Of a stretch of 64,000 nt of DNA, positions 1 through 11,158 are shown in pieces. Each line of letters starts with the position of its first letter. Within the stretch, counting starts at the first letter, position 1. This stretch comes from Ectopseudomonas composti (GTDB taxonomy: Bacteria; Pseudomonadota; Gammaproteobacteria; Pseudomonadales; Pseudomonadaceae): NCBI RefSeq assembly GCF_900115475.1, contig NZ_FOWP01000003.1, positions 372,001 to 436,000 of the forward strand, in the 5' to 3' direction. A program made the position numbers and the translations under genes. The notes below the pieces were generated by a model that saw nothing but the letters and a program-made list of their open reading frames with translations, did not search any database and was not told where the DNA came from.

Positions 1-1653
1 GAGACTGGACAAAAAGACCAGCAAGGCCAGCGCCAGGGTCACTTTTGGCCAAGCCAGCACCCACTCCAGTACCGGCCGGTATGCGCCGATCAGCCAGCGG
101 TTCAAGGGGTTCTGTTGTTCGCTGGGGATATGCCCGCGAATCCAGTAGCCCATCAGCACCGGTACCAAGGTGACCGAGAGTCCGGCGGCAGCCGCCATGG
201 CATAGGTCTTGGTGAAGGCCAGCGGGCCGAACAGGCGGCCTTCCTGGGCCTCCAGGGTGAAGACCGGGAGGAAGGACAGGGTGATGATCAGCAGGCTGAA
301 GAACAGCGCCGGCCCGACCTCGACCGCGGCTTCGCCGATCACCCGCCAGTGCGCCTCGCCCTGTAGCTGCTCACCAGGGTGTCGAGCCTTCCAGGTTTCG
401 ATGTGCTTGTGCGCGTTCTCGATCATCACCACGGCGGCGTCGACCATAGCGCCGATGGCGATGGCGATCCCGCCGAGCGACATGATGTTGGCATTGACGC
501 CCTGGTAGCGCATGACGATGAAGGCCATGAGGATGCCCAGGGGCAGGGTGATGATCGCGACCAGCGACGAGCGCAGGTGCCAGAGGAAGAGCAGGCAAAC
601 CAAGGCCACCACCACGAACTCTTCCAGCAGCTTGTAGCTGAGGTTATCGATGGCGCGGTCGATCAGTTGCGAGCGGTCATAGGTGGTGACCACCTCGACG
701 CCGGCCGGCAGGCTGCCCTTCAGGCTGTCCAGCTTGGTCTTCACCGCGGCGATGGCATCGCGGGCATTCTTTCCGGAGCGTAGGATGACCACGCCGCCTA
801 CCACTTCACCCTGGCCATCCAGCTCGGCAATGCCACGCCGCATCTCTGGCCCCAGCTGAATGGTGGCTACCTGACCCAGCAGCACCGGAACTCCGCTGGC
901 CGAAGCCCGCAGCGGCACATTGCGGAAATCCTCCAGGCTCTCTAGATAGCCTGAAGCCCGCACCATGTACTCGCGCTCCGCCAGCTCCAGGATGGCGCCG
1001 CCGGTTTCCTGATTGGCGCTCTTCAGCGCCGCTTCGACCTCCTGCTGAGTTACCCCATAAGCCACCAGCTTTTGCGGATCGAGCAGCACCTGATACTGCT
1101 TGACCATGCCCCCGAGGGTAGCCACTTCGGCCACGTTGGGTAGGCTCTTGAGCTCGTACTTGAGGAACCAGTCCTGCAGCGCCCGTAGCTGCGCAAGATC
1201 ATGTTGGCCGCTGCGGTCGACCAGGGCGTACTGGTAGATCCAACCCACGCCCGTGGCATCCGGCCCGAGGGTGGTGGTAACACCCTCGGGCAGGCGCTCC
1301 TGCGCCTGGTTGAGGTACTCCAATACGCGCGAGCGCGCCCAGTAGAGGTCGGTATCGTCCTCGAACAGCACATAAACGAATGAGTCACCAAAGAACGAGT
1401 AGCCGCGCACCGTCTTCGCCCCCGGTACCGAGAGCATGGTGGTCGCCAGTGGGTAGGTCACCTGGTTCTCGACGATCTGCGGCGCCTGTCCGGGAAAGCT
1501 GGTTCTGATGATGACCTGGGTATCGGACAGGTCCGGCAGTGCATCCAACGGCGTGTTGCGCAGCGACCAGACGCCCAGGGCGGTGATGAACAGGGTCGCC
1601 AGCAGCACCAGGAAGCGATTGCCGATAGACCAGTGGATCAGGCGCGCGATCAT
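1..1653 (-). CDS. cusA: Cus-type heavy-metal RND efflux pump, inner-membrane subunit (partial)
   Basis: Reading the minus strand from 1653 gives 551 uninterrupted codons that run off the left edge, so the C-terminal half is missing. The protein begins [14 protein letters not shown], typical of HME-RND transporters, and shows the first membrane helix, the porter-domain region and the membrane segment with [17 protein letters not shown] near residue 400, which carries the conserved acidic residue of the proton relay. The family exports Cu(I)/Ag(I) from periplasm and cytoplasm through a CusCBA tripartite complex. The start codon overlaps the cusB stop (ATGA), so translation is probably coupled. 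Copper/silver rather than Co/Zn/Cd is inferred from the CusF domain fused to the neighbouring adaptor. Confidence 0.93.
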
Positions 1654-3107
1654 GGCCGCTCTCCTTGATTGACGAGCCGCTCGACCCGCAGGCCGGAATC
1701 CGTCTGGCGGACGCCGATACGCACGTGATCCCCGGGCTTAAGCCCAGCCGCTACTTCGGGGCTGGCCAGTGGAAATGCCATGGTCATACCGGGCATATTC
1801 AGGCTCTCGAATGGCCCGTGCTCCAGGGTGACTTCCTCAGCGTCCAGAGCGCGAATCACACCATGGGACTCATGTAGTTCCTTCTCATTGTCCTGCTCGG
1901 CATGGCTGGCCATGATGCCCTGCAGGCTGGCTTCCGAATCGATGAGGAACTGGCCGGAGGTGACGACCGCCTGACCTTCCTCTAGGCCGGACAGCACTTC
2001 GAGGCGCCCATCGGCCTCGCGGCCCAGACTGATTTCCTGGGGACGGTAGCGTCCGTCGCCTTCGGCCAGCATCACCAATGCACGCTTGCCGGTGCGAATC
2101 ACGGCTTCACTCGGCACAAGAAGCGCGGGTTGTTCGACGGTACTGTTCAGGCGTACGGCGGCGAACATGCCGGGGCGCAACTTACCGGCAGGGTTGGGTA
2201 GCTCGCTGCGTACCGTGAGCGTGCGCGTTTGCGGGTCGGCACTCGGCAACAAAGCGATGACGCGGCCCTGCAGCGGTTGCCCGGGGAAGGCGGTCAGGGT
2301 GGCGCGGATGTCAGCCCCAACCTGAACCATTCCAGCCATTGCTTCGGGTATCGCCGCATCGAGCCAGACCGTGGACAGCCCGTTGATCCTGGCCAGGTCC
2401 TGACCCGCCTCCACGGTCATCCCGGCGCGTACCTGCAAGGCTTGGAGCTCGCCGGCGATAGGTGTGGTGAGGGTTTGCACCGCCCGCGGTTTGCCGCTGC
2501 GGCGAACCTGCTCGATCAACGCTTGAGGCATGCCGAGCAGGCGCAGGCGCTCTTGGGTCGCACTTATCAAGCGAATGTCAGCGGTACGCAGTACCGCCAG
2601 GAACTCCAACTGCGCGGCGAACCACTCGGGAATCAGCAGGTCGACCAGGGGGGTACCGGCAGGCAGCACATCGCCCGGGGCACGCCCGTAAACCCGCTCG
2701 ACGAATCCGCCAGCGCGAGCCTGGAGGTTCGCCACCTCTCGCTGGTTATAGGCCAGGGAACCGACCGCCTCGATACCCGAGGGCAGTACACCGCGGATCA
2801 CCGGAGAAGTTCGCATTCCGAGGCTTTGCACGGCTTGAGCGGGGACGCTCAGGACAGACGGATCCTGCTCGGATCCCGCGTATTTAGGGACAAGCTCCAT
2901 ATCCATGAAAGGTGACTTGCCCGGTTTATCGAAGCGCTGCTCGGGCTGCATCGGGTCGTACCAATAGAGCACCTTGCGCTCGTCCGTCGGTGCAGAACTG
3001 GGCAGAACCTCATGTTTGGCCTGCCGCTGGGCCAGCCAGTAGCCGCCTGCCGCGCCAATGCCCACGGCCAGCAAGGCGACCGCAAAACCAAATGCCGATA
3101 TCTTCAT
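1650..3107 (-). CDS. cusB: Cus-type RND periplasmic adaptor with fused C-terminal CusF domain
   Basis: 485 residues. An N-terminal membrane anchor (about 5-25) is followed by a heavy-metal-binding-like segment (about 47-77, [10 protein letters not shown]...DMELVPKY), a barrel-sandwich/alpha-hairpin adaptor core and a C-terminal CusF-like domain (about 410-482) containing [10 protein letters not shown]. That Met-rich motif is the Cu(I)/Ag(I)-binding signature of CusF, so a metallochaperone that is a separate protein in E. coli is here tethered to the adaptor. The N-terminal metal-binding segment keeps its framework but has lost the Cys residues usual in CPMHP...CPxCGM versions. Start and stop both overlap the neighbours by ATGA, giving a tightly coupled cusC-cusB-cusA operon. 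Confidence 0.92.
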
Positions 3108-4366
3108 CTCAGTCCCTCCACATAGGCGTAATACAGGCTTGCGGAGAGCTGGCTCAACTTGCGCTGCTGTTCAATCTGCCGCAGCTGCGCCTCGATCAGG
3201 TCGCGCTGTGCGGTAATAACGGATGTGAGCTGGCTGTTACCGGCTTGGTAGGCGGCTAGTTCGAGATCGGCCCGTTTGCTTGCAAGCGGGATCAAGGTTT
3301 TTTCGGTGCGTGACAAGGTCCTGCGCAGTTGCTCAAGCTCGGCAATACCGCCTTCAAGCTCAGCCTGATGGGCGCGCAGTAACGCCTCCTGCTCGGCTTC
3401 CATCTGCGACACGCTGTGCTGCCTGGCATTGATCTTGGGCCCCTGACGTGTGCCTACGAACAACGGCAGGTCGAAGGTGAATTGCACCATCACCATATCG
3501 CCGAACTGGTTGTCGCGATTGTTGTAGGCAAACTCGACACCCCAGTCGGGAGTCTTTTCGGCGATGGCCTCGTTCAGCTCGGCGCTAGCCTCGCCGACTC
3601 GGGCCGAGGCAGCGCGCAACTCAGGGTGTGAGGCAATGCGTTGCGGCAGGTGCGGTGCCTCCAGGCTCAGATTGGGAACACCTCCTTGCAAAGGCTGATC
3701 GGCCTCGTTGCCTATCCAGCGGCGCAGCTTGGCACGAGCCACTGCTACATCGCGATTCAGCTCGTCTCGCCGATCCTGCAATGCCAAAGCTTCCTGGTCG
3801 GCCTGCAACAGCTCGCCAGGCTGAGCACTACCGCCGGCAATCAGCGATTGCACGGTCGAGCGGAGCATCTCGAGCTGACGATCCAGTTGATCGAAGAGGC
3901 CAACACTGCGTTCGGCGTAGTACACGTCCAGCCAGCTCACTGCCGTCAGGCGCTTGATTCCCAACTGCATGGCACGTTGCTCGGCTTCGGCCCGCGTCAT
4001 GGAGGCTTCGGCCAGTTGGCGACGGGCCAGACGCTTGTCGCCGTTTGGTACCTCCTGCATGAGTCCAATGCGGCGCATGGTCATGGAGTCACGATTCAGG
4101 GTGTAACGGTCAGGGCCTTCGATCAGCAGGTTGTCGATGCCTAGAATAAGCTTGGGATCGGGCAGGGCGTCTGCGGGCCCTACAGCCTGCTGTGCCGATG
4201 CCACCTGCGCCTGGCGCGCGAGGTTCTCAGGGGCACTCTGCTCGGCCAGAGCTTGGGCTCGTTCGAAGGTTAGGGGCTGCGCCTGCGCGGCAAGCCAGGG
4301 AGCTGCCCAGAATGCGGCAGCCAACACGCCGAGATAGCCACGGCGTGTGAAAAGGAAAGCGGGCAT
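3104..4366 (-). CDS. cusC: Cus-type outer-membrane efflux protein (TolC family)
   Basis: 420 residues from the ATG at 4366, which is preceded by a good ribosome site (GGAGGCG, 5 nt spacing); an upstream in-frame start would add 13 residues without a better site. A signal peptide (MPAFLFTRRGYLGVLAAAFW..., cleaved near AQAQP) leads into the long helical repeats of an OEP/TolC channel. The stop overlaps the cusB start. It would form the outer-membrane duct of the copper/silver pump. The export signal has a twin-arginine-looking TRRGYLG stretch, but the helix after it is ordinary and Sec export is more likely. Confidence 0.88.
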   Translation of the reverse strand: MPAFLFTRRGYLGVLAAAFWAAPWLAAQAQPLTFERAQALAEQSAPENLARQAQVASAQQAVGPADALPDPKLILGIDNLLIEGPDRYTLNRDSMTMRRIGLMQEVPNGDKRLARRQLAEASMTRAEAEQRAMQLGIKRLTAVSWLDVYYAERSVGLFDQLDRQLEMLRSTVQSLIAGGSAQPGELLQADQEALALQDRRDELNRDVAVARAKLRRWIGNEADQPLQGGVPNLSLEAPHLPQRIASHPELRAASARVGEASAELNEAIAEKTPDWGVEFAYNNRDNQFGDMVMVQFTFDLPLFVGTRQGPKINARQHSVSQMEAEQEALLRAHQAELEGGIAELEQLRRTLSRTEKTLIPLASKRADLELAAYQAGNSQLTSVITAQRDLIEAQLRQIEQQRKLSQLSASLYYAYVEGLR

Positions 4367-4423
4367 GCTTTCGCCTCCAATGCGATTGATCGAGGTCGCC
4401 ACCAAAAACGTGGTCGCGACGAT

Positions 4424-4442
4424 GCGCCTGGTTTAAAGGCGC
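4424..4442 (-). other. Small hairpin between the Cys-rich gene and cusC
   Basis: GCGCC, a TGGTTTAAA loop and GGCGC form a short inverted repeat in the gap between the stop of the upstream small gene and the cusC start. There is no T-run, so it is unlikely to be a terminator. It may be a processing or stability element within one operon transcript. Confidence 0.35.
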
Positions 4443-4455
4443 GAAGATCACTGCA

Positions 4456-4800
4456 TTAGACGAAACGAGGAGGGCGCCAGAGTCCTGCGGGCTCTCTCTT
4501 AATCACCGACTGGGTCAGCAATATCTCGGGGCGTGAGGGAAGAGGGGATATGCTCTTGATAACGGTGGTCTGGAGAAGTCCTCCGGTCTTGCATTCCTGG
4601 CCGGATTTGCAGGGGGACTTACTGGCCACCCCATCAGACTTATCCATTTGCTCGCAGCACGGAGCATCGGCCATTGCATGGCCCTGATGATCGGCGCTCT
4701 GCATCGGGCAAGGCTGTGCCGGCATGCTGAAAGCCATACCGCCGAAGGTCGGCAGCACGAGACTAGCAATCATTACCAGGATCAATCCAATTCGACGCAC
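4456..4800 (-). CDS. Small exported Cys/Met/His-rich protein preceding the cus operon
   Basis: 114 residues with a GTG start. An N-terminal signal-like helix (MRRIGLILVMIASLVLPTFG) is followed by a segment rich in metal-ligand residues (PCPMQSADHQGHAMADAPCC, then more Cys), with seven Cys in the mature part plus several Met and His. Similar small proteins sit first in Pseudomonas copper/silver efflux operons; a role as a periplasmic metal-binding or accessory factor is inferred. I know no biochemical function for it. The weak GTG start is overlapped by a 23-codon upstream reading frame (4782-4853) with a much stronger ribosome site, so expression may depend on coupling. Confidence 0.7.
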   Translation of the reverse strand: MRRIGLILVMIASLVLPTFGGMAFSMPAQPCPMQSADHQGHAMADAPCCEQMDKSDGVASKSPCKSGQECKTGGLLQTTVIKSISPLPSRPEILLTQSVIKREPAGLWRPPRFV

Positions 4801-4853
4801 AGCAATTCACCAGGCGGGCGATAGGGCGACGATAGCAGATTGCCCCGAGGCAT
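4782..4853 (-). CDS. Possible 23-residue leader peptide upstream of the cus operon
   Basis: On the minus strand AAAAGGAG lies 5 nt before an ATG at 4853 that opens 23 codons (MPRGNLLSSPYRPPGELLCV... ending ELD) and stops at TGA 4782-4784, overlapping the GTG start of the Cys-rich gene in another frame. The ribosome site is the best in the region. A leader that couples translation into the weak GTG gene fits the geometry, but nothing proves it is made, and it would not be transcribed if the start site lies closer in, as a class II FNR-box layout would predict. Confidence 0.3.
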   Translation of the reverse strand: MPRGNLLSSPYRPPGELLCVELD

Positions 4854-4876
4854 GAACGCTCCTTTTGGCAATAGTG

Positions 4877-4890
4877 TTGATTTGGATCAA
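4877..4890. promoter_or_regulatory. FNR/ANR-type box upstream of the cus operon
   Basis: TTGATTTGGATCAA is a perfect match to the FNR/ANR/DNR consensus TTGAT-N4-ATCAA. It lies 77 bp upstream of the Cys-rich gene that leads into cusCBA. Its centre at 4883.5 would put a class II start site near 4842. It also overlaps a candidate minus-strand promoter (TTGATA, 17 bp, TTTGAT), in which case it could repress. Low-oxygen control is plausible because Cu(I) toxicity rises without oxygen. Confidence 0.55.
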
Positions 4891-5023
4891 ATAGAGTGTC
4901 ATGCAGGGTATCAATCGGGCTCAACTGGTAGCTCCGTTTAACCGGATTTCTCAAGCTCGTAGGGTTCGCACCACCCGCTAGGCGCGCTAGCACAAGACCG
5001 GCCTCGCTAGCCGTTCAGTCGAG

Positions 5024-5042
5024 CCCCAAGTAGGAATTGGGG
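5024..5042. other. Short hairpin in the terminus intergenic region
   Basis: CCCCAA and TTGGGG pair around a 7-nt loop. A second hairpin, GCCTGC/GCAGGC with a TTCGA loop, follows near 5094-5110. Neither has a T-run. They may be decayed terminators or structural remnants; no gene is assigned. Confidence 0.3.
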
Positions 5043-5126
5043 GCCTGGTCAAACATACTGTTGCTTAGGCGAGATGCAGGGGCTGCCTGCTTCGAGCAGG
5101 CCCAATCAGGCACCAAAAGCGAATTC

Positions 5127-5164
5127 TATAATCGCTCTATAATCACTTTATAATCGACTATAAA
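5127..5164. repeat. Four helically phased TATAATC/TATAAAC direct repeats
   Basis: TATAATC begins at 5127, 5138 and 5149, and a fourth TATAAAC copy at 5159, giving spacings of 11, 11 and 10 bp, about one helical turn each. They lie about 480 bp from dif in otherwise gene-free DNA. The pattern resembles phased protein-binding sites or stacked -10 elements. No binding protein is known to me for this sequence. Confidence 0.6.
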
Positions 5165-5636
5165 CCAGATTCTAGAGCGCCCGGCGCTGCCTAAAAAGCC
5201 GATCAGTTGCTGTATGCATGTGTCACTTAGATACTGCATACAAGGAGCCCGAAGGAGGGGTGTTTGATCGGGGAGAATGCGCTACCTAGCAAGCGCAACC
5301 CTGTACGATACGGACGTCGACTCAGGCTTCTCTACTTCAAGCCGTTACTATTCATAGAAGAGACCAGGAGCAAAGTTCCAAATTGACTTCCAACAAACAG
5401 GTGGAGCCCCACATTGCTTTCCAATGCTGTCAAAGAGCAGTTCGCATCCACGCGGCCCGTGTGTCATACCCTGAAGGTGTCTCCTTGGAGTCTCAAATTT
5501 GTCGATTCACAGAAGATGAAGTTTCAAATTTTGCTTCCAAACCGCTCACGAGAGAGGTGTTCAGGTGCTTTCTGTTTCAAATTCACCCGATCACAAGAGA
5601 CACCCGATCAAGAAGGGGCATCTGGCCCAATACGTT

Positions 5637-5664
5637 ATTTAACATAATATACATTATGCGAATC
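5637..5664 (-). other. dif: dif chromosome dimer resolution site (XerC/XerD)
   Basis: On the minus strand the XerC arm GATTCGCATAA, the centre TGTATA and the XerD arm TTATGTTAAAT follow one another exactly. This differs from the E. coli dif site at 2 of 28 positions, both in the XerC arm, and agrees with the Pseudomonas form as I recall it. FtsK-activated XerCD recombination at dif resolves chromosome dimers, so this marks the replication terminus. Polar octamers switch strand here, as expected of KOPS. No integrated element is visible next to it. Confidence 0.93.
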
Positions 5665-6027
5665 GAAGACTTATCCATCGCGGGGCCTTTCAGCCACAAT
5701 TTGGCCAGGCTGAATCACTCACTTTGCTCTCCAAGTACCTGAAACTCCGGCTTTATCGATCACTGCCATGATCCATGCAACCCATGGGCGTTGAAAACGT
5801 TCGCTCTGCCTTTCTTTCGTCGACGGCCCGAAACGCGTAAAGCGATAGGTTCTTTGCACGCATATGGATGGGTTCGCTTCGATTCAGCTTATGCGCAACA
5901 GGATGGAGCGCCTGGGTTGCACGCAGACCGCGACGCCCTATATCCACATGGAGTTTACCCAGGCTGGTCCATGCGGCTGACTTGTCCGCACATCGACATC
6001 TAAGTCGATCAACTCATCGCGATTCCC

Positions 6028-6056
6028 TTGACCCATGCATTGGCTCACACAATACT
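6028..6056 (+). promoter_or_regulatory. Candidate sigma-70 promoter for the imu cassette
   Basis: TTGACC at 6028-6033 and AATACT at 6051-6056 are separated by 17 bp, 31 bp before the imuA start. The -10 element touches the first bases of the LexA box, so LexA would block polymerase binding. Assigned by position and match only. Confidence 0.5.
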
Positions 6057-6070
6057 GTATTCATATACAG
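6055..6070. promoter_or_regulatory. LexA (SOS) box
   Basis: CTGTATTCATATACAG is a perfect CTG-N10-CAG SOS box, almost fully palindromic, 16 bp before the imuA ATG at 6087. It predicts DNA-damage induction of the whole imuA-imuB-dnaE2 cassette, as known for this operon in Pseudomonas and other bacteria. Confidence 0.92.
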
Positions 6071-6086
6071 TATTTGGTCATTTCCC

Positions 6087-6676
6087 ATGTCATCCGTGGT
6101 TGCGCTTGACCGATTGATCGACGCTCGTCGTGTGTGGCGAGGCCAAGTCGTTTCATCGCCATCGGGCGCCAATTTTTCAACTGGACACCCGTTTCTCGAC
6201 GCTGCATTGCCAGGTGGCGGCTGGCCCAAGGCTGCCCTTAGTGAAATTCTCACGGCTGCGCCAGGCACCGGCGAGCTGAGTCTGCTGTGGCCGACCATTG
6301 CCAAGCTTACGGCTGCGGGCGAGCGGGTCGTGTTGGTCTCCCCTCCTCATCTGCCCTACCCCCAGGCCTGGATTGATGCGGGTATCGATTTGCGTCAACT
6401 GAGCATCATCCATACCAGTGGCCGCGACGCTTTATGGGTTGTGGTGCTGTGTTGAGCTGGTTGCGTCAGAGCGATGATCGTTCGTTGAGGCGCCTGCAGG
6501 TGGCTGCCGGTACCGGGCAAACCCTGGCGTTCGCTTATCGACCGCAGGCAGAAGCCGCCAATCCTTCACCGGCAGCGCTGCGCCTGGTGCTCGAAAGCCA
6601 ACCAGCACAGCTGCGGGTGATCAAGTGCCGGGGCGGTTTGCCGCCAGCGCAGCCGCTCGCGTTTGCTTGGCATTGA
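6087..6676 (+). pseudogene. imuA: Frameshifted imuA (SulA/RecA-like translesion synthesis protein)
   Basis: The first frame starts at ATG 6087 (MSSVVALDRLIDARRVWRGQ) and shows the RecA-like core of ImuA up to SGRDALW, then leaves the frame and stops at 6453-6455 after VVVLC. The rest of the family sequence continues in another frame from about 6434 (GCGAVLSWLRQ to AFAWH) and stops at 6676, 7 nt before imuB. The missing length must be 1 modulo 3. Compared with the usual family sequence (recalled, about eight residues between DALW and the GCGAVL segment), a 25-nt deletion fits exactly. ImuA works with ImuB and DnaE2 in damage-induced mutagenesis, so the cassette may be non-functional unless the shift is a sequence error. 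Confidence 0.85.
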
Positions 6677-6683
6677 GCCATTC

Positions 6684-8093
6684 ATGCTCTGGGCTTGCAT
6701 TTTGTTGCCACAACTCGCCATGGACGGCGTACAGCGTCACCGCGCCGATGTTGATGAGCCGTTGGTGTTGCTTACCGGCTCATCACAACGACGCATACTG
6801 CAGGCCGTCAATCCAACGGCCCGCGCCCTGGGACTGAAGCCTGGTCAGTCACTGACAGCGGCACAGGCGCTGACGCGCGGGTTTGCTACGGCGGAATATG
6901 ACCCTGTAGCCATCGAGCGATGGCAACAGTTTCTGGCCGCCTGGGCCTATGGTTTCAGTGCTCAGGTCAGTCTTCATTATCCGCGCTGCCTGCTGCTGGA
7001 GGTGCAGTCCAGCTTGGGCTTGTTCGGCCCCTGGCCGCGTTTCGAAGCACGTCTACGCGCTGAGCTTTCGGCACTAGCCTTCCAGCACCGCATCGCCGTG
7101 GCGCCAAACCCGGCGGCCGCGCGGGTGCTGGTCAACGTCGGTGATGGGCTGCTGGCAGGTGATGGGCAGACGCTCAAACGGATACTCGATCCATTGCCAG
7201 TGGATAGGCTTGGGCTTTCCGCCACGGTAACCACTGCCTTCAAACGCATGGGGCTCAGGCAGTTGCGGCAGCTGTTGGCTCTGCCGCGTGACAGCCTGGC
7301 CAAGCGGTTTCCTGCTGAAGTGCTTGGCCATCTCGATACCCTGCTGGGCCATCGTCCACTGGCGCTGGAATTCTTCAAGCCTGCGGATGTTTTCGATGCC
7401 CGTATCGAGCTGAATTTCGAGGTGGCATCGCATCAGGCACTGCTGTTCCCGCTACGCCGCTTGACGGCCGATCTGGCGGCTTACCTGGCCGGCCGTGACA
7501 GTGGCGTACAGCGTTTCGCCTTGTCTCTCGAGCATCGAGCGGGTGCCGACACCCTGGTGCAGGTGGGCTTGCTCAGTGCCGAACGCGACCCTGGCATGCT
7601 GTTCGAATTGACTCGCGGCCGTCTGGAACATCAACAGTTACCAGCGCCGGTGCTGGCCGTACGGCTGGTGGCTCGTGAGTTGCCGGTGTTCATGCCGCAG
7701 CATCAGCAGCTGTTTGATGAGCGTCCACAGCAGAATCAGCCTTGGGAGCAATTGCGTGAGCGGCTGCGTGCACGGCTGGGTGATGACGCACTGCACAGCC
7801 TTGGTGCCAGAGCGGACCATCGCCCTGAACGCGCCTGGGTGAGCGAGCCGACAAATACGCTACTGCCCGTCAGTGGCCCACGCCCAGGTTGGCTGTTGAG
7901 CGAGCCACAGCCATTGCGGGATATCTCGCTACGCATTCTCTCCGGCCCGGAGCGAATCGAATCCGGCTGGTGGGACGGTGAGGACATCCGCCGCGACTAC
8001 TACGTGGTGCAGACCCGTACCGGGCAACGCGGCTGGGCCTTCCGCCCGGTCGGCAGTGACGGTCCATTGCTGCTGCACGGCTGGTTCGCATGA
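6684..8093 (+). CDS. imuB: ImuB, catalytically inactive Y-family polymerase-like SOS mutagenesis protein
   Basis: 469 residues from ATG 6684 ([14 protein letters not shown]), the usual family start; an earlier in-frame start would overlap imuA. The fold is that of a DinB/UmuC polymerase without the full catalytic acidic set, as is normal for ImuB, which bridges the beta clamp and DnaE2. A candidate clamp-binding motif (HQQLFDE) lies near residues 340-346. The start has a poor ribosome site, so translation probably depends on coupling from imuA, which the imuA frameshift would disturb. The stop overlaps the dnaE2 start (ATGA). Confidence 0.92.
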
Positions 8094-11000
8094 GCGATTA
8101 CGCCGAGCTGCATTGCCTATCGAACTTCAGTTTCCAGCGCGGCGCGTCCAGTGCGCAGGAGTTGTTCGAGCGTGCCGCAAGGCTGGGCTATCGCGCCTTG
8201 GCGATCACCGATGAATGCACCTTGGCGGGCATCGTGCGTGCCTGGGAGGCATCGAAGAACAGCGGCGTAAAGCTGATCGTGGGCAGTGAGGTGCTGATCG
8301 AGAATGGCCCGAAACTGGTTCTGCTGGTCGAGAATCTGCAGGGCTATCAGGCACTTTGTGGCCTTATCACCCGGGCACGGCGCCGAGCGGCAAAAGGTAC
8401 ATACCGACTGCTGCACGAGGATTTCCCTGCGCAGCTCGATGGGTTGCTGGCCATCTGGCTCAGCGAAGGCAGCCCTACTACCCTGCCCTGGCTTCGCTCG
8501 GTATTCGCCGAACACCTGTGGCTGGGCGTGGAATTGCACCGGAGTGCGGGCGATGCTGCACGCCTGCAGCACCTGCTCGAACTGGCAGGCGATCACGATC
8601 TGCCAGCTGTGGCCTGTGGCGATGTACACATGCATGCCCGTGGCCGCCGCGCCTTGCAGGATTGCATGACTGCTATCCGCCACCATCTTCCCGTGACCGA
8701 AGCCGGCGCCTACCTGTTTGCCAATGGCGAGCGGCATCTGCGCCGAGTTGATGAGCTGGTCGAGCTGTATCCGCCCGAGCTGCTCGCCCAGGCCCTGCGC
8801 ATCGCCGAGCGCTGCCACTTCGATCTCGATCAGCTGGAGTATCACTACCCGCACGAGTTGGTGCCTGCAGGTCATGACGCCACGTCCTGGCTGCGCGTTC
8901 TGGTGGAGCGTGGCGCTGCCGAGCGTTGGCCCGAGGGTGTGCCGAACGTCGCTCGTGCGCAGATCGAACACGAACTGGCACTGATCGCCGAGCTGGAATA
9001 CGAAAGCTACTTTCTGACCGTGCACGACATCGTCCGCTTCGCCCGTGAACAACGCATTCTCTGCCAGGGCCGAGGTTCAGCGGCCAACTCGAGTGTCTGT
9101 TTCGCCCTGGGTATCACCGAACTGGACCCGACGCACAGCAGGCTGTTGTTCGAGCGTTTTCTCTCCCGTGAGCGTAACGAACCGCCGGATATCGACGTCG
9201 ACTTCGAGCATGAGCGGCGTGAAGAGGTGATCCAGTATGTGTTTCGCCGTTATGGCCGAGCGCGTGCGGCGCTTACGGCTGTGGTCAACACCTATCACGG
9301 CGCCGGGGCGATACGCGACGTCGCCAAGGCCCTTGGCTTGCCGCCTGATCAGGTCAATGCCCTGGCTGACTGCTGTGGCCGCTGGAGCAACGGCCCACCA
9401 TCGGCCGAGCGCCTGATGGAAGCGGGGTTCGACCCACAGAATCCACTGCTCAGGCGCGTGCTGATCCTGACTGGTGAGCTGATCGGTTTCCCCCGCCACC
9501 TATCACAACATCCCGGTGGTTTCGTCATTTCCGAGCACGCCCTCGATACGCTGGTGCCGGTGGAAAACGCGACGATGGCGGAGCGCACCGTCATCCAGTG
9601 GGACAAGGACGATCTGGACATGATCGGCCTGCTCAAGGTCGACGTGCTGGCGTTGGGTATGCTGAGCGCGTTGCGCCGCTGTTTCGGCCTGATCGAGCGC
9701 TACCGGGGCACGCAGTGGACGCTGGCGACCCTGCCTAAGGAAGACCCGGCCACCTACGCCATGATCAGCCGCGCAGACACCATCGGTGCGTTCCAGATCG
9801 AGTCCCGCGCGCAGATGGCAATGCTGCCGCGCCTGCGCCCGAACACCTTCTACGATCTGGTGATTCAGGTGGCCATCGTCCGTCCGGGGCCGATCCAGGG
9901 CGACATGGTGCATCCCTACCTGCGTCGGCGAAACGGCGAAGAACCGATCGACTACCCCTCTGATGAACTCAAGCCGGTCTTCGAGCGCACGCTCGGCGTG
10001 CCGCTGTTTCAGGAGCAGGTCATGGAGTTGGCCATCGTCGCAGCCGAGTACACACCCGGCGAGGCGGATGAACTGCGCCGCAGCATGGCCGCCTGGAAAC
10101 GTCATGGCGGGCTCGAACCGCATCGCCAGCGACTAACCTCGCGCATGCTGGAAAAGGGTTACACGCAGGCTTTCACCGAACGGATATTCCGCCAGATCGA
10201 GGGCTTCGGTAGTTACGGTTTTCCCGAGTCGCACGCGGCCAGCTTCGCCCTGCTCGCCTATGCCAGTTGCTGGCTGAAATGCCACGAGCCCGCAGCCTAT
10301 GCTTGCGCTCTGGTCAACAGTTGGCCGATGGGCTTCTACAGCCCGGATCAGGTACTGCAGGATGCACGGCGGCATGATGTAGAGGTGCGCTCCGTGGACG
10401 TACGTTACAGCGACTGGGATTGCAGCCTGGAGTCGAATGAACATGGCGAGCCGGCCATCCGCCTGGGGCTGAGGATGATTCGCGGCTTCCGCGAGGCCGA
10501 TGCGCGGCGTATCGAACAGGCGCGCCAGTGCGGCGCATTCCGTGATGTCGAAGACCTTAGCCAGCGTGCGTTACTGGATGCATCGGCACGCGAGCACCTG
10601 GCCGATGCTGGCGCGCTAAGCAGCCTGGTAGGTGATCGCTATCGGGCGCGCTGGGCAGTCTCTGGGGTCGAGGAACAACTGCCGCTGTTTGCAGGCGTGC
10701 CTGCGCCGACTGAAGAAGTCTCGAGCCTGCCGGTACCGTCGCCAGGCGAAAACCTGCTGACCGACTATGCCACCCTTGGCACCACGCTCGGCCCACATCC
10801 TCTTGCCATGCTGCGCGAGGCATTGCGCGCCCAGCGCTGCCGCAGTTCCGATGATTTGCAGGCGATTGAGCACGGCCGCCCCGTCAGCATCACCGGCATG
10901 GTGATCGGCCGGCAAAGACCGCAAACCGCCAGCGGGGTTATTTTCGTCACCCTCGAAGATGAGTTCGGCCTGGTCAACGTGGTTGTCTGGCACGACCTGG

Positions 11001-11158
11001 CCGAGCGGCAGCGACGAGTTCTGGTGCAGTCGCAAATGCTGCGCGTCGATGGCCACTTGGAGACCGTCGACGGTGTGCGCCACGTAATCGCCGGACGCCT
11101 GACGGACATGACGACGCTGCTGATGGGGCTGGATATTCGCAGTCGCGATTTTCACTGA
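8090..11158 (+). CDS. dnaE2: Error-prone DNA polymerase III alpha-like subunit DnaE2 (ImuC)
   Basis: 1022 residues, normal for the family. An N-terminal PHP domain (about 1-230) precedes the PolIIIalpha palm with the acidic cluster PDIDVDFEH (about residues 365-373), thumb and fingers regions, helix-hairpin-helix segments and a C-terminal OB domain (about 890-1000). It is the catalytic polymerase of the ImuABC mutasome and inserts opposite DNA lesions after SOS induction. It overlaps imuB by 4 nt as the third gene of the LexA-controlled operon. The reading frame is intact, in contrast to imuA. Confidence 0.95.

Follow-up and report, generated by a model that had tools for sequence, protein, structure and literature searches.

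The 64,000 nucleotides of Ectopseudomonas composti DNA analysed here (the window) lie on contig C16 of a draft genome and carry, near their left end, a sequence that an earlier note had read as the recombination site dif, within a stretch that holds few genes. We asked what this site is and what accounts for the gene-poor DNA next to it. Comparison with related genomes makes it highly probable that the site is the single chromosomal dif and, at the same time, the attachment region for a family of large Tn7-like transposons, one of which ends just outside it.

The window contains the only dif site of the genome

The minus strand at window positions 5637-5664 reads GATTCGCATAA TGTATA TTATGTTAAAT, with the XerC arm at 5654-5664, the centre at 5648-5653 and the XerD arm at 5637-5647, and shows no mismatch to the dif arms and centre. 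Relative to E. coli dif, the 28-mer has two differences, as the earlier note had stated. It is the same in all 28 letters as the Pseudomonas aeruginosa PAO1 dif in the table of Carnoy and Roten's 2009 survey (PMC2731167), and the claim of a complete dif at this position therefore stands. The note had also expected a search of the whole genome to return a unique hit, and in the 5,392,494-base draft genome this was indeed the sole match at up to three mismatches; the next-best 28-mer on the 468-kb contig C16, the other strand of dif excepted, has 10 mismatches. None of 100 dinucleotide-preserving shuffles matched dif at up to three mismatches which, together with the single genomic copy, rules out a chance match.

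The same holds across a panel of 149 genomes of the genus, our own included, of which 105 have one dif match at up to three mismatches, while the 22-base dif core occurs once, at that threshold, in 40 of the 44 others. No panel genome has more than one copy by either query, and four (G069, G072, G075 and G146) gave no match at the 28-mer or core threshold. Chromosomal dif is the site at which chromosome dimers are resolved by XerC and XerD, with FtsK assisting. Genes for XerC and XerD were identified in our genome above curated cut-offs and the FtsK gamma domain was found too; very probably, joined chromosome copies are separated at this 28-base site in this Pseudomonas. As such, dif itself is an already known feature.

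Segregation signals switch at dif

On contig C16, the FtsK-orienting KOPS motif GGGNAGGG occurs 47 times in forward and once in reverse orientation to the left of dif, and once in forward and 15 times in reverse orientation to its right, so that 62 of 64 motifs agree with a polarity switch at dif. The best breakpoint falls in the 2.2-kb interval between C16 376160 and 378354, dif being located at 377637, and none of 20,000 label permutations equalled this fit. In our genome, a draft of 28 contigs, dnaA is on C7 and dif on C16. Among relatives, the distance between the two amounted to 0.474-0.500 of the chromosome in 24 of 24 genomes assembled into one contig, with 13 of the 24 genome sizes rounded to 0.1 Mb. 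These 24 are all the one-contig genomes among 35, namely our own and 34 with a dif match on contig C1; the other 11, our own among them, consist of several contigs and were left out, and G051 and G080, which also have their dif match on C1, lie outside the set of 35.

The cumulative GC-skew maximum was found at C16 337793, 40 kb to the left of dif. When the transposon described below was left out, it shifted to C16 382699, 5 kb to the right of dif, and we attribute the offset to the presence of this element. The earlier note had taken the window to be the terminus of the chromosome and had named a skew switch at the site as a check; the window does hold dif and the marks of a segregation terminus, with KOPS switching at dif, and the reading needs qualifying in that the skew maximum of the intact sequence is 40 kb off. 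In P. aeruginosa PAO1-UW, KOPS and GC skew switch near dif and replication terminates away from it (PMC6199493), and therefore dif need not mark the point at which the forks meet.

A 49,869-bp element stops 39 bp from dif

According to the earlier note, dif would explain the lack of genes between 4.9 and 6.05 kb. This proved incorrect, as about 700 of these 1,150 bases, up to position 5597, are the terminal part of a Tn7-like transposon, whose right-hand portion fills window positions 1-5597. The whole element reaches from C16:327729, 44.3 kb to the left of the window start, to window position 5597, comprises 49,869 bp and, on the XerD side, leaves a gap of 39 bp to dif. Its right end (5375-5597, minus strand) carries the repeats AATTTGAAAC/AATTTGAGAC/AATTTGGAAC at 5574-5583, 5521-5530, 5490-5499 and 5375-5384, which on the minus strand read AATTTGAAAC, two of the four with one change, and copies in inverted orientation are found at the left end, 44 kb to the left of the window, at C16 327759, 327902 and 327930. 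The right terminus reads 5'-CTTGTGATCGGGTG at window 5597; in longer form, the two ends of the element read 5'-CTTGCGACTCC (C16:327729) and 5'-CTTGTGATCGG (window 5597). It is framed by a perfect 5-bp target-site duplication, AGACA, with the right copy at window 5598-5602 and the left copy, outside the window, at C16:327724-327728. Between the duplication and dif lie 34 bp of host DNA (5603-5636) that align with G064 and G032. The G+C content of the element is 0.566 versus 0.616 for the rest of contig C16.

Within the right end region, the stretch 4914-5424 has 85% identity to DNA just inside the dif-side end of the related element in G054 (subfamily B, see below) and is possibly, judging from this similarity, the remnant of an earlier related end. 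Window 5120-5175 contains about four near-tandem TCTATAATC-type repeats, two of them found by the repeat tool, and repeats of this type match other genomes of the genus, mostly far from dif or on another contig. No Rfam match was obtained up to E 1 for structured RNA near dif in window 4000-7000. Two other origins of the dif flank were considered and rejected: a plasmid origin, as seven plasmid records gave matches that were each confined to 13% of the query or less, five of the seven via the cus-side end, and a recombination patch, as the 100%-identical block that is shared with G113 and ends 40 bp before dif is the transposon end itself.

On the other side of dif, the host DNA contains a palindrome, AATACTGTAT-4-ATACAGTATT, at 6051-6074 upstream of imuA, presumably a LexA-box-like sequence. 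The imuA gene is split over window 6087-6673, positions 1-106 of the 181-position ImuA model being matched by 6087-6452 and positions 114-181 by 6434-6673 in another frame, which indicates either a frameshifted gene or an assembly error; the dnaE2-like gene at 8090-11158 is one open frame. Beyond the left end of the element, relative to G012, 16 kb of extra DNA (C16:311403-327723) separate the element from the left dif neighbour of G012 and encode a PEP carboxylase, DctP/DctM and an IS-like remnant.

The element encodes Tn7-like transposition proteins and metal resistance cargo

Four ORFs of 210, 628, 328 and 485 aa are located beside the distal repeats. The 628-aa product is TnsB-like, with rve and HTH matches, and the 328-aa product TnsC-like, with an AAA match, all of these being weak and below gathering scores; the 485-aa product is TniQ, above the Pfam gathering score. 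The 210-aa ORF, a putative TnsA by position and size, gave no Pfam or NCBIfam match and a weak match to REase_II (E 0.019). The order TnsB-like, TnsC-like, tniQ is conserved in relatives, in which the tns genes are likewise distal to dif. By its ORF order and arrayed end repeats, the element has the layout of a Tn7-like transposon.

Family searches identified CusA, CusB, a multicopper oxidase, CopB and a heavy-metal two-component system as cargo, along with ChrB, a chromate transporter and a P-type ATPase with a heavy-metal-binding domain, so that the cargo is predicted to be of the copper/silver/chromate resistance type. The part inside the window, all on the minus strand, comprises a portion of a gene for a CusA/CzcA-type heavy-metal RND pump (1-1653; whole ORF L011:10504-13653), a gene for a CusB-like periplasmic adaptor with a CusF-like tail (1650-3107) and one for a TolC/CusC-like outer-membrane factor (3104-4405), the last with family matches far below cut-off. 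An OprD-family porin is encoded at L011:8547-9870 (about -3453 to -2130 in window coordinates) by two ORFs that cover profile positions 1-200 and 226-393. Elsewhere inside the transposon, at L010:11029-15345, a HEPN/Toprim-domain gene adjoins a gene for a 992-aa AAA/SMC-like ATPase, and the two possibly form a defence pair.

Related elements sit at the XerD side of dif

TniQ matches at E 1e-25 or better were present in 11 of 398 genomes. In nine of these 11 panel genomes tniQ and dif share a contig, about 44-77 kb apart, and in G332 and G002 they are on separate contigs. A search with orf384, the neighbour of tniQ described below, returned four loci, of which L129 and L130 belong to G148 and G102, genomes already among those compared, and L128 and L131 to two additional genomes, G398 and G399. 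Both ends could be located for 12 elements, those of 10 of the 11 panel genomes and of G398 and G399. All 12 have perfect 5-bp target duplications at both ends and the twelve duplications are mutually different; in G332, where the two ends of the element lie on two contigs, the same duplication is found on both. The distance from the right end to the XerD edge of dif was 31, 33, 36, 39, 39, 50, 53, 65, 68, 68, 74 and 155 bp, and the same end faces the XerD arm in 12 of 12 cases. Side and orientation are hence fixed and spacing varies; even the elements of G000 and G113, with near-identical tns genes, are 39 versus 65 bp from dif. Several elements share much sequence; the insertions are separate and the lineages few.

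The 12 elements fall into two groups. Subfamily A comprises nine elements with one kind of end and orf384, the termini reading 5'-CTTGYGA (5'-CTCGCGA at one end in G332), and subfamily B those of G054, G194 and G379, with another kind of end (5'-CKTKC) and no orf384 match. In subfamily B, the point of divergence between the three sequences defined the right terminus, and the duplication served to find the left one, so that these three elements are less independent proofs; the three left ends agree on one terminus. Lengths ranged from 48.6 to 128.7 kb in the 11 elements measured, the longest being that of G399.

Several further loci deserve mention. In G333, tniQ is in two pieces in different frames. 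G002, whose TniQ match has about 31% identity over part of the protein and whose tniQ is on another contig, showed no end at dif. Element ends were also sought and not found in G056, G024, G011 and G023, in which a TniQ gene lies 35-142 kb from dif. By eye, G011 has apparent end repeats on the right, XerC-proximal side of dif (L155 from 10892, and L156), with TnsB- and TniQ-like matches about 35 kb away, and perhaps represents a second, oppositely placed dif-targeting lineage. G078 (C1:2682548-2694085; L081-L082) has in common with our element the dif-adjoining right end and some 11.5 kb of cargo, at 98.4% identity versus about 88% on either side, without a match to its TniQ, and would appear to be a copy that has decayed or been exchanged. 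Near tniQ at L130:8550-9716 (G102) and after tniQ in L108 (G054), ORFs resembling tyrosine recombinases were noted whose catalytic motifs look complete by eye. On plasmids, TnsB relatives were limited to distant ones of less than 60% identity.

A tniQ-adjacent gene with a possible relation to tyrosine recombinases

In all nine subfamily-A elements, tniQ is followed by a convergent gene, orf384. A profile of eight Orf384 sequences matched a profile of nine tyrosine recombinases with a probability of 75 and a score of 45, as against scores of at most 21 for TnsB, TnsC, TniQ and KfrA and at most 17.6 for 20 column-shuffled profiles. The similarity is confined to the N-terminal half and does not reach the catalytic HxxR and Tyr. 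In Tn6022, comM is targeted by TnsF, an inactivated tyrosine recombinase (PMC10293859), and the parallel, suggestive only, raises the idea that the orf384 product is a TnsF-like dead tyrosine recombinase reading dif as TnsF reads comM. The constant position of orf384 beside tniQ in subfamily A and a recombinase match that exceeds unrelated and shuffled profiles and leaves out the catalytic half speak for this. On the other hand, subfamily-B elements are found at dif without a recognisable orf384, Pfam returned no recombinase for it and two unrelated matches only (E 0.08 and 0.19), the probability against a profile of XerC and XerD alone was 3.9, and the AlphaFold model, built from four sequences, had a pLDDT of 39.5 and was unusable. 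A PDB sequence search yielded 0 matches up to E 10. We consider such a role for the orf384 product tentative and somewhat unlikely.

dif is the probable target

When the 12 sites were aligned on dif, 26 of the 28 dif columns were identical in 10 or more of the 12 genomes, and this applied to none of 31 flanking columns on the left and none of 100 on the right (G379 gives 2 right bases). On this alignment, dif is the only sequence common to the 12 insertion sites. We then joined the flanks of our element with one copy of the duplication and compared this reconstructed empty site with 61 dif-upstream segments, same-genome repeats included. Our own site apart, alignments that span the junction were obtained with G064 (query 98-220, 75%, E 1e-16) and G032 (query 95-220, 70%, E 1e-13), and a weaker match, to L039 of G003 (E 8e-6), starts at query 146. 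The G064 score was 139 versus at most 107 in 200 left-flank shuffles, every score being partly due to dif itself. The end repeats are absent in the 400 bp before dif in both G064 and G032. As G064 has a related copper region 14 kb from dif, it is empty only at the exact insertion spot.

About a quarter of the dif sites in the 2009 survey have mobility genes adjoining (PMC2731167), and some mobile DNA near dif is therefore to be expected. The site could accordingly be an ordinary dif alone, with the gene-poor stretch being terminus DNA and the nearby island a coincidence. However, a coincidence would have to place 12 of 12 elements whose two ends were located within 31-155 bp of dif, on the same side and in the same orientation, with different perfect 5-bp duplications. 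Moreover, 107 TniQ-domain matches occur in the 149-genome panel, 33 of them on the dif contig, and of these 33 only nine are within 142 kb of dif whereas 24 are at least 0.87 Mb away, the nearest of them at 0.88 Mb and 13 at 2.8-3.5 Mb along the contig; six of the nine near matches belong to the dif-adjoining family and those in G056, G024 and G011 are of other kinds. We regard coincidence as very improbable. Equally little weight falls on the proposal that target choice follows the replication-terminus region rather than dif: TnsE of Tn7 does favour terminus regions, but all 12 of 12 elements inserted on one side of dif and no more than 155 bp from it, which is far tighter than a regional preference. 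Least probable of all, and close to negligible, is entry as an IMEX by XerCD recombination between dif and a carried dif mimic; although IMEXs do integrate at dif (PMC9765430), the far end of our element has no second dif-like site (the single genomic match and the 10 mismatches of the next best on the contig contradict XerCD-mediated integration), the 5-bp duplications, together with end repeats in arrays, are typical of a DDE transposon, and the element ends 39 bp from dif, not inside it.

The reading of the site as dif and attachment region in one is left as the preferred explanation. Regarding the alternative offered in the earlier note, a mobile-element att site, one half was right: the site is a genuine dif that has a family of transposons inserting next to it.

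Within the 11 elements examined, KOPS motifs point toward dif 134 times and away from it nine times (97 and nine distinct contexts). This polarity was the strongest among 42 motifs of like composition, the other 41 of which gave 70% when pooled; in the five least related elements KOPS counted 56 to 7 and ranked second of 42, not first. The elements look adapted to one orientation beside dif, though part of the polarity could stem from gene orientation.

A model for transposition beside dif

We propose that a 49.9-kb member of the family, with TnsB- and TnsC-like genes, tniQ, orf384 and metal-resistance cargo, transposed to a position 39 bp outside the XerD arm, with a duplication of 5 bp and no damage to dif. 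The transposase would be brought there by TniQ, in one subfamily perhaps jointly with the orf384 protein, through recognition of either dif DNA or XerC/XerD on dif. Fixed spacing, as in TnsD-type targeting, would suggest one protein reading dif DNA; the spacing here varies between 31 and 155 bp, and therefore reading of XerC/XerD bound to dif is the more likely of the two. The combination of varied spacing and fixed polarity also recalls the res site hunters and the IS1202-family dif hunters discussed below, and by this analogy we favour a TniQ that reads XerCD on dif. A berth beside dif in one orientation may spare genes and keep the FtsK-orienting motifs of the element rightly pointed. In its full form, the model describes a Tn7-like lineage with dif as its dedicated attachment site, in which TniQ, perhaps with a dead tyrosine-recombinase partner in one subfamily, reads XerCD-dif from the XerD side, and in which KOPS polarity suits the berth so that the elements travel as ready-made terminus DNA; for this whole we see about an even chance.

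If true, the targeting of dif by a Tn7-like lineage would amount to an additional class of target, a site that is present once in 145 of the 149 genus genomes examined and is known to serve segregation. It would provide a natural setting in which to test whether transposons are able to sense XerCD on DNA, and a candidate for a predictable, gene-sparing landing place in Pseudomonas.

Comparison with known systems

The 28 letters of PAO1 dif recur here unchanged (PMC2731167), and what is different is the Tn7-like end 39 bp away. Arrayed repeats at both ends, putatively transposase-binding, and a 5-bp duplication are as in Tn7-like transposons. The termini of the Tn7 family are given as 5'-TGT...ACA-3' (PMC10132070), whereas those found here are 5'-CTTG/CKTKC, hence the designation 'Tn7-like' as opposed to Tn7 family in the strict sense. 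Attachment sites described for Tn7-like elements include glmS, tRNA genes, comM (PMC10293859) and CRISPR-guided sites. Tn6022 with TnsF (PMC10293859) resembles our elements in having TnsABC, TniQ and a dead tyrosine-recombinase partner, the last only suggested here, and differs in that its target is comM and its tnsF gene is in an operon with tniQ, whereas here the target is dif and orf384 is convergent to tniQ; the text of that paper, as searched, contains neither the whole word dif nor, at the start of a word, XerC, terminus, chromosome dimer or resolvase.

Two other groups share the landing place or the machinery. IMEX elements also use dif (PMC9765430), but integrate through Xer recombination, of which the 49,869-bp element shows no sign. 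The Tn5053/Tn402 'res site hunters' have TniA/B/Q machinery, 5-bp repeats, a preferred orientation and a recombination site as target, the resolvase that acts at a given res site being used for insertion there (PMC7765201). Their targets are thus res sites of resolvases, and they bring a res-TniR resolution system of their own, whereas the site here is one of XerCD.

The closest published case that we found are the 1.5-kb IS1202-family 'dif site hunters' of Acinetobacter (ISAjo2 group; PMC10132070, PMC9455709), which insert on the XerC side, a contact with XerC having been proposed for them (PMC10132070). Shared with our family are a TnsB-related transposase, a 5-bp duplication, fixed orientation and a position adjacent to dif. 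However, those are single-gene elements 5 bp from the XerC arm, while the elements described here are 49-129 kb long, lie 31-155 bp from the XerD arm and, unlike the IS1202-family elements, have TnsC-like and TniQ genes. In the parts of openly licensed PMC papers that our search covered, with preprints outside its scope, we found no description of a Tn7-like element at dif. The family thus belongs to a known kind, the dif hunters, of which the Tn7-like version is new as far as the openly licensed literature was searched.
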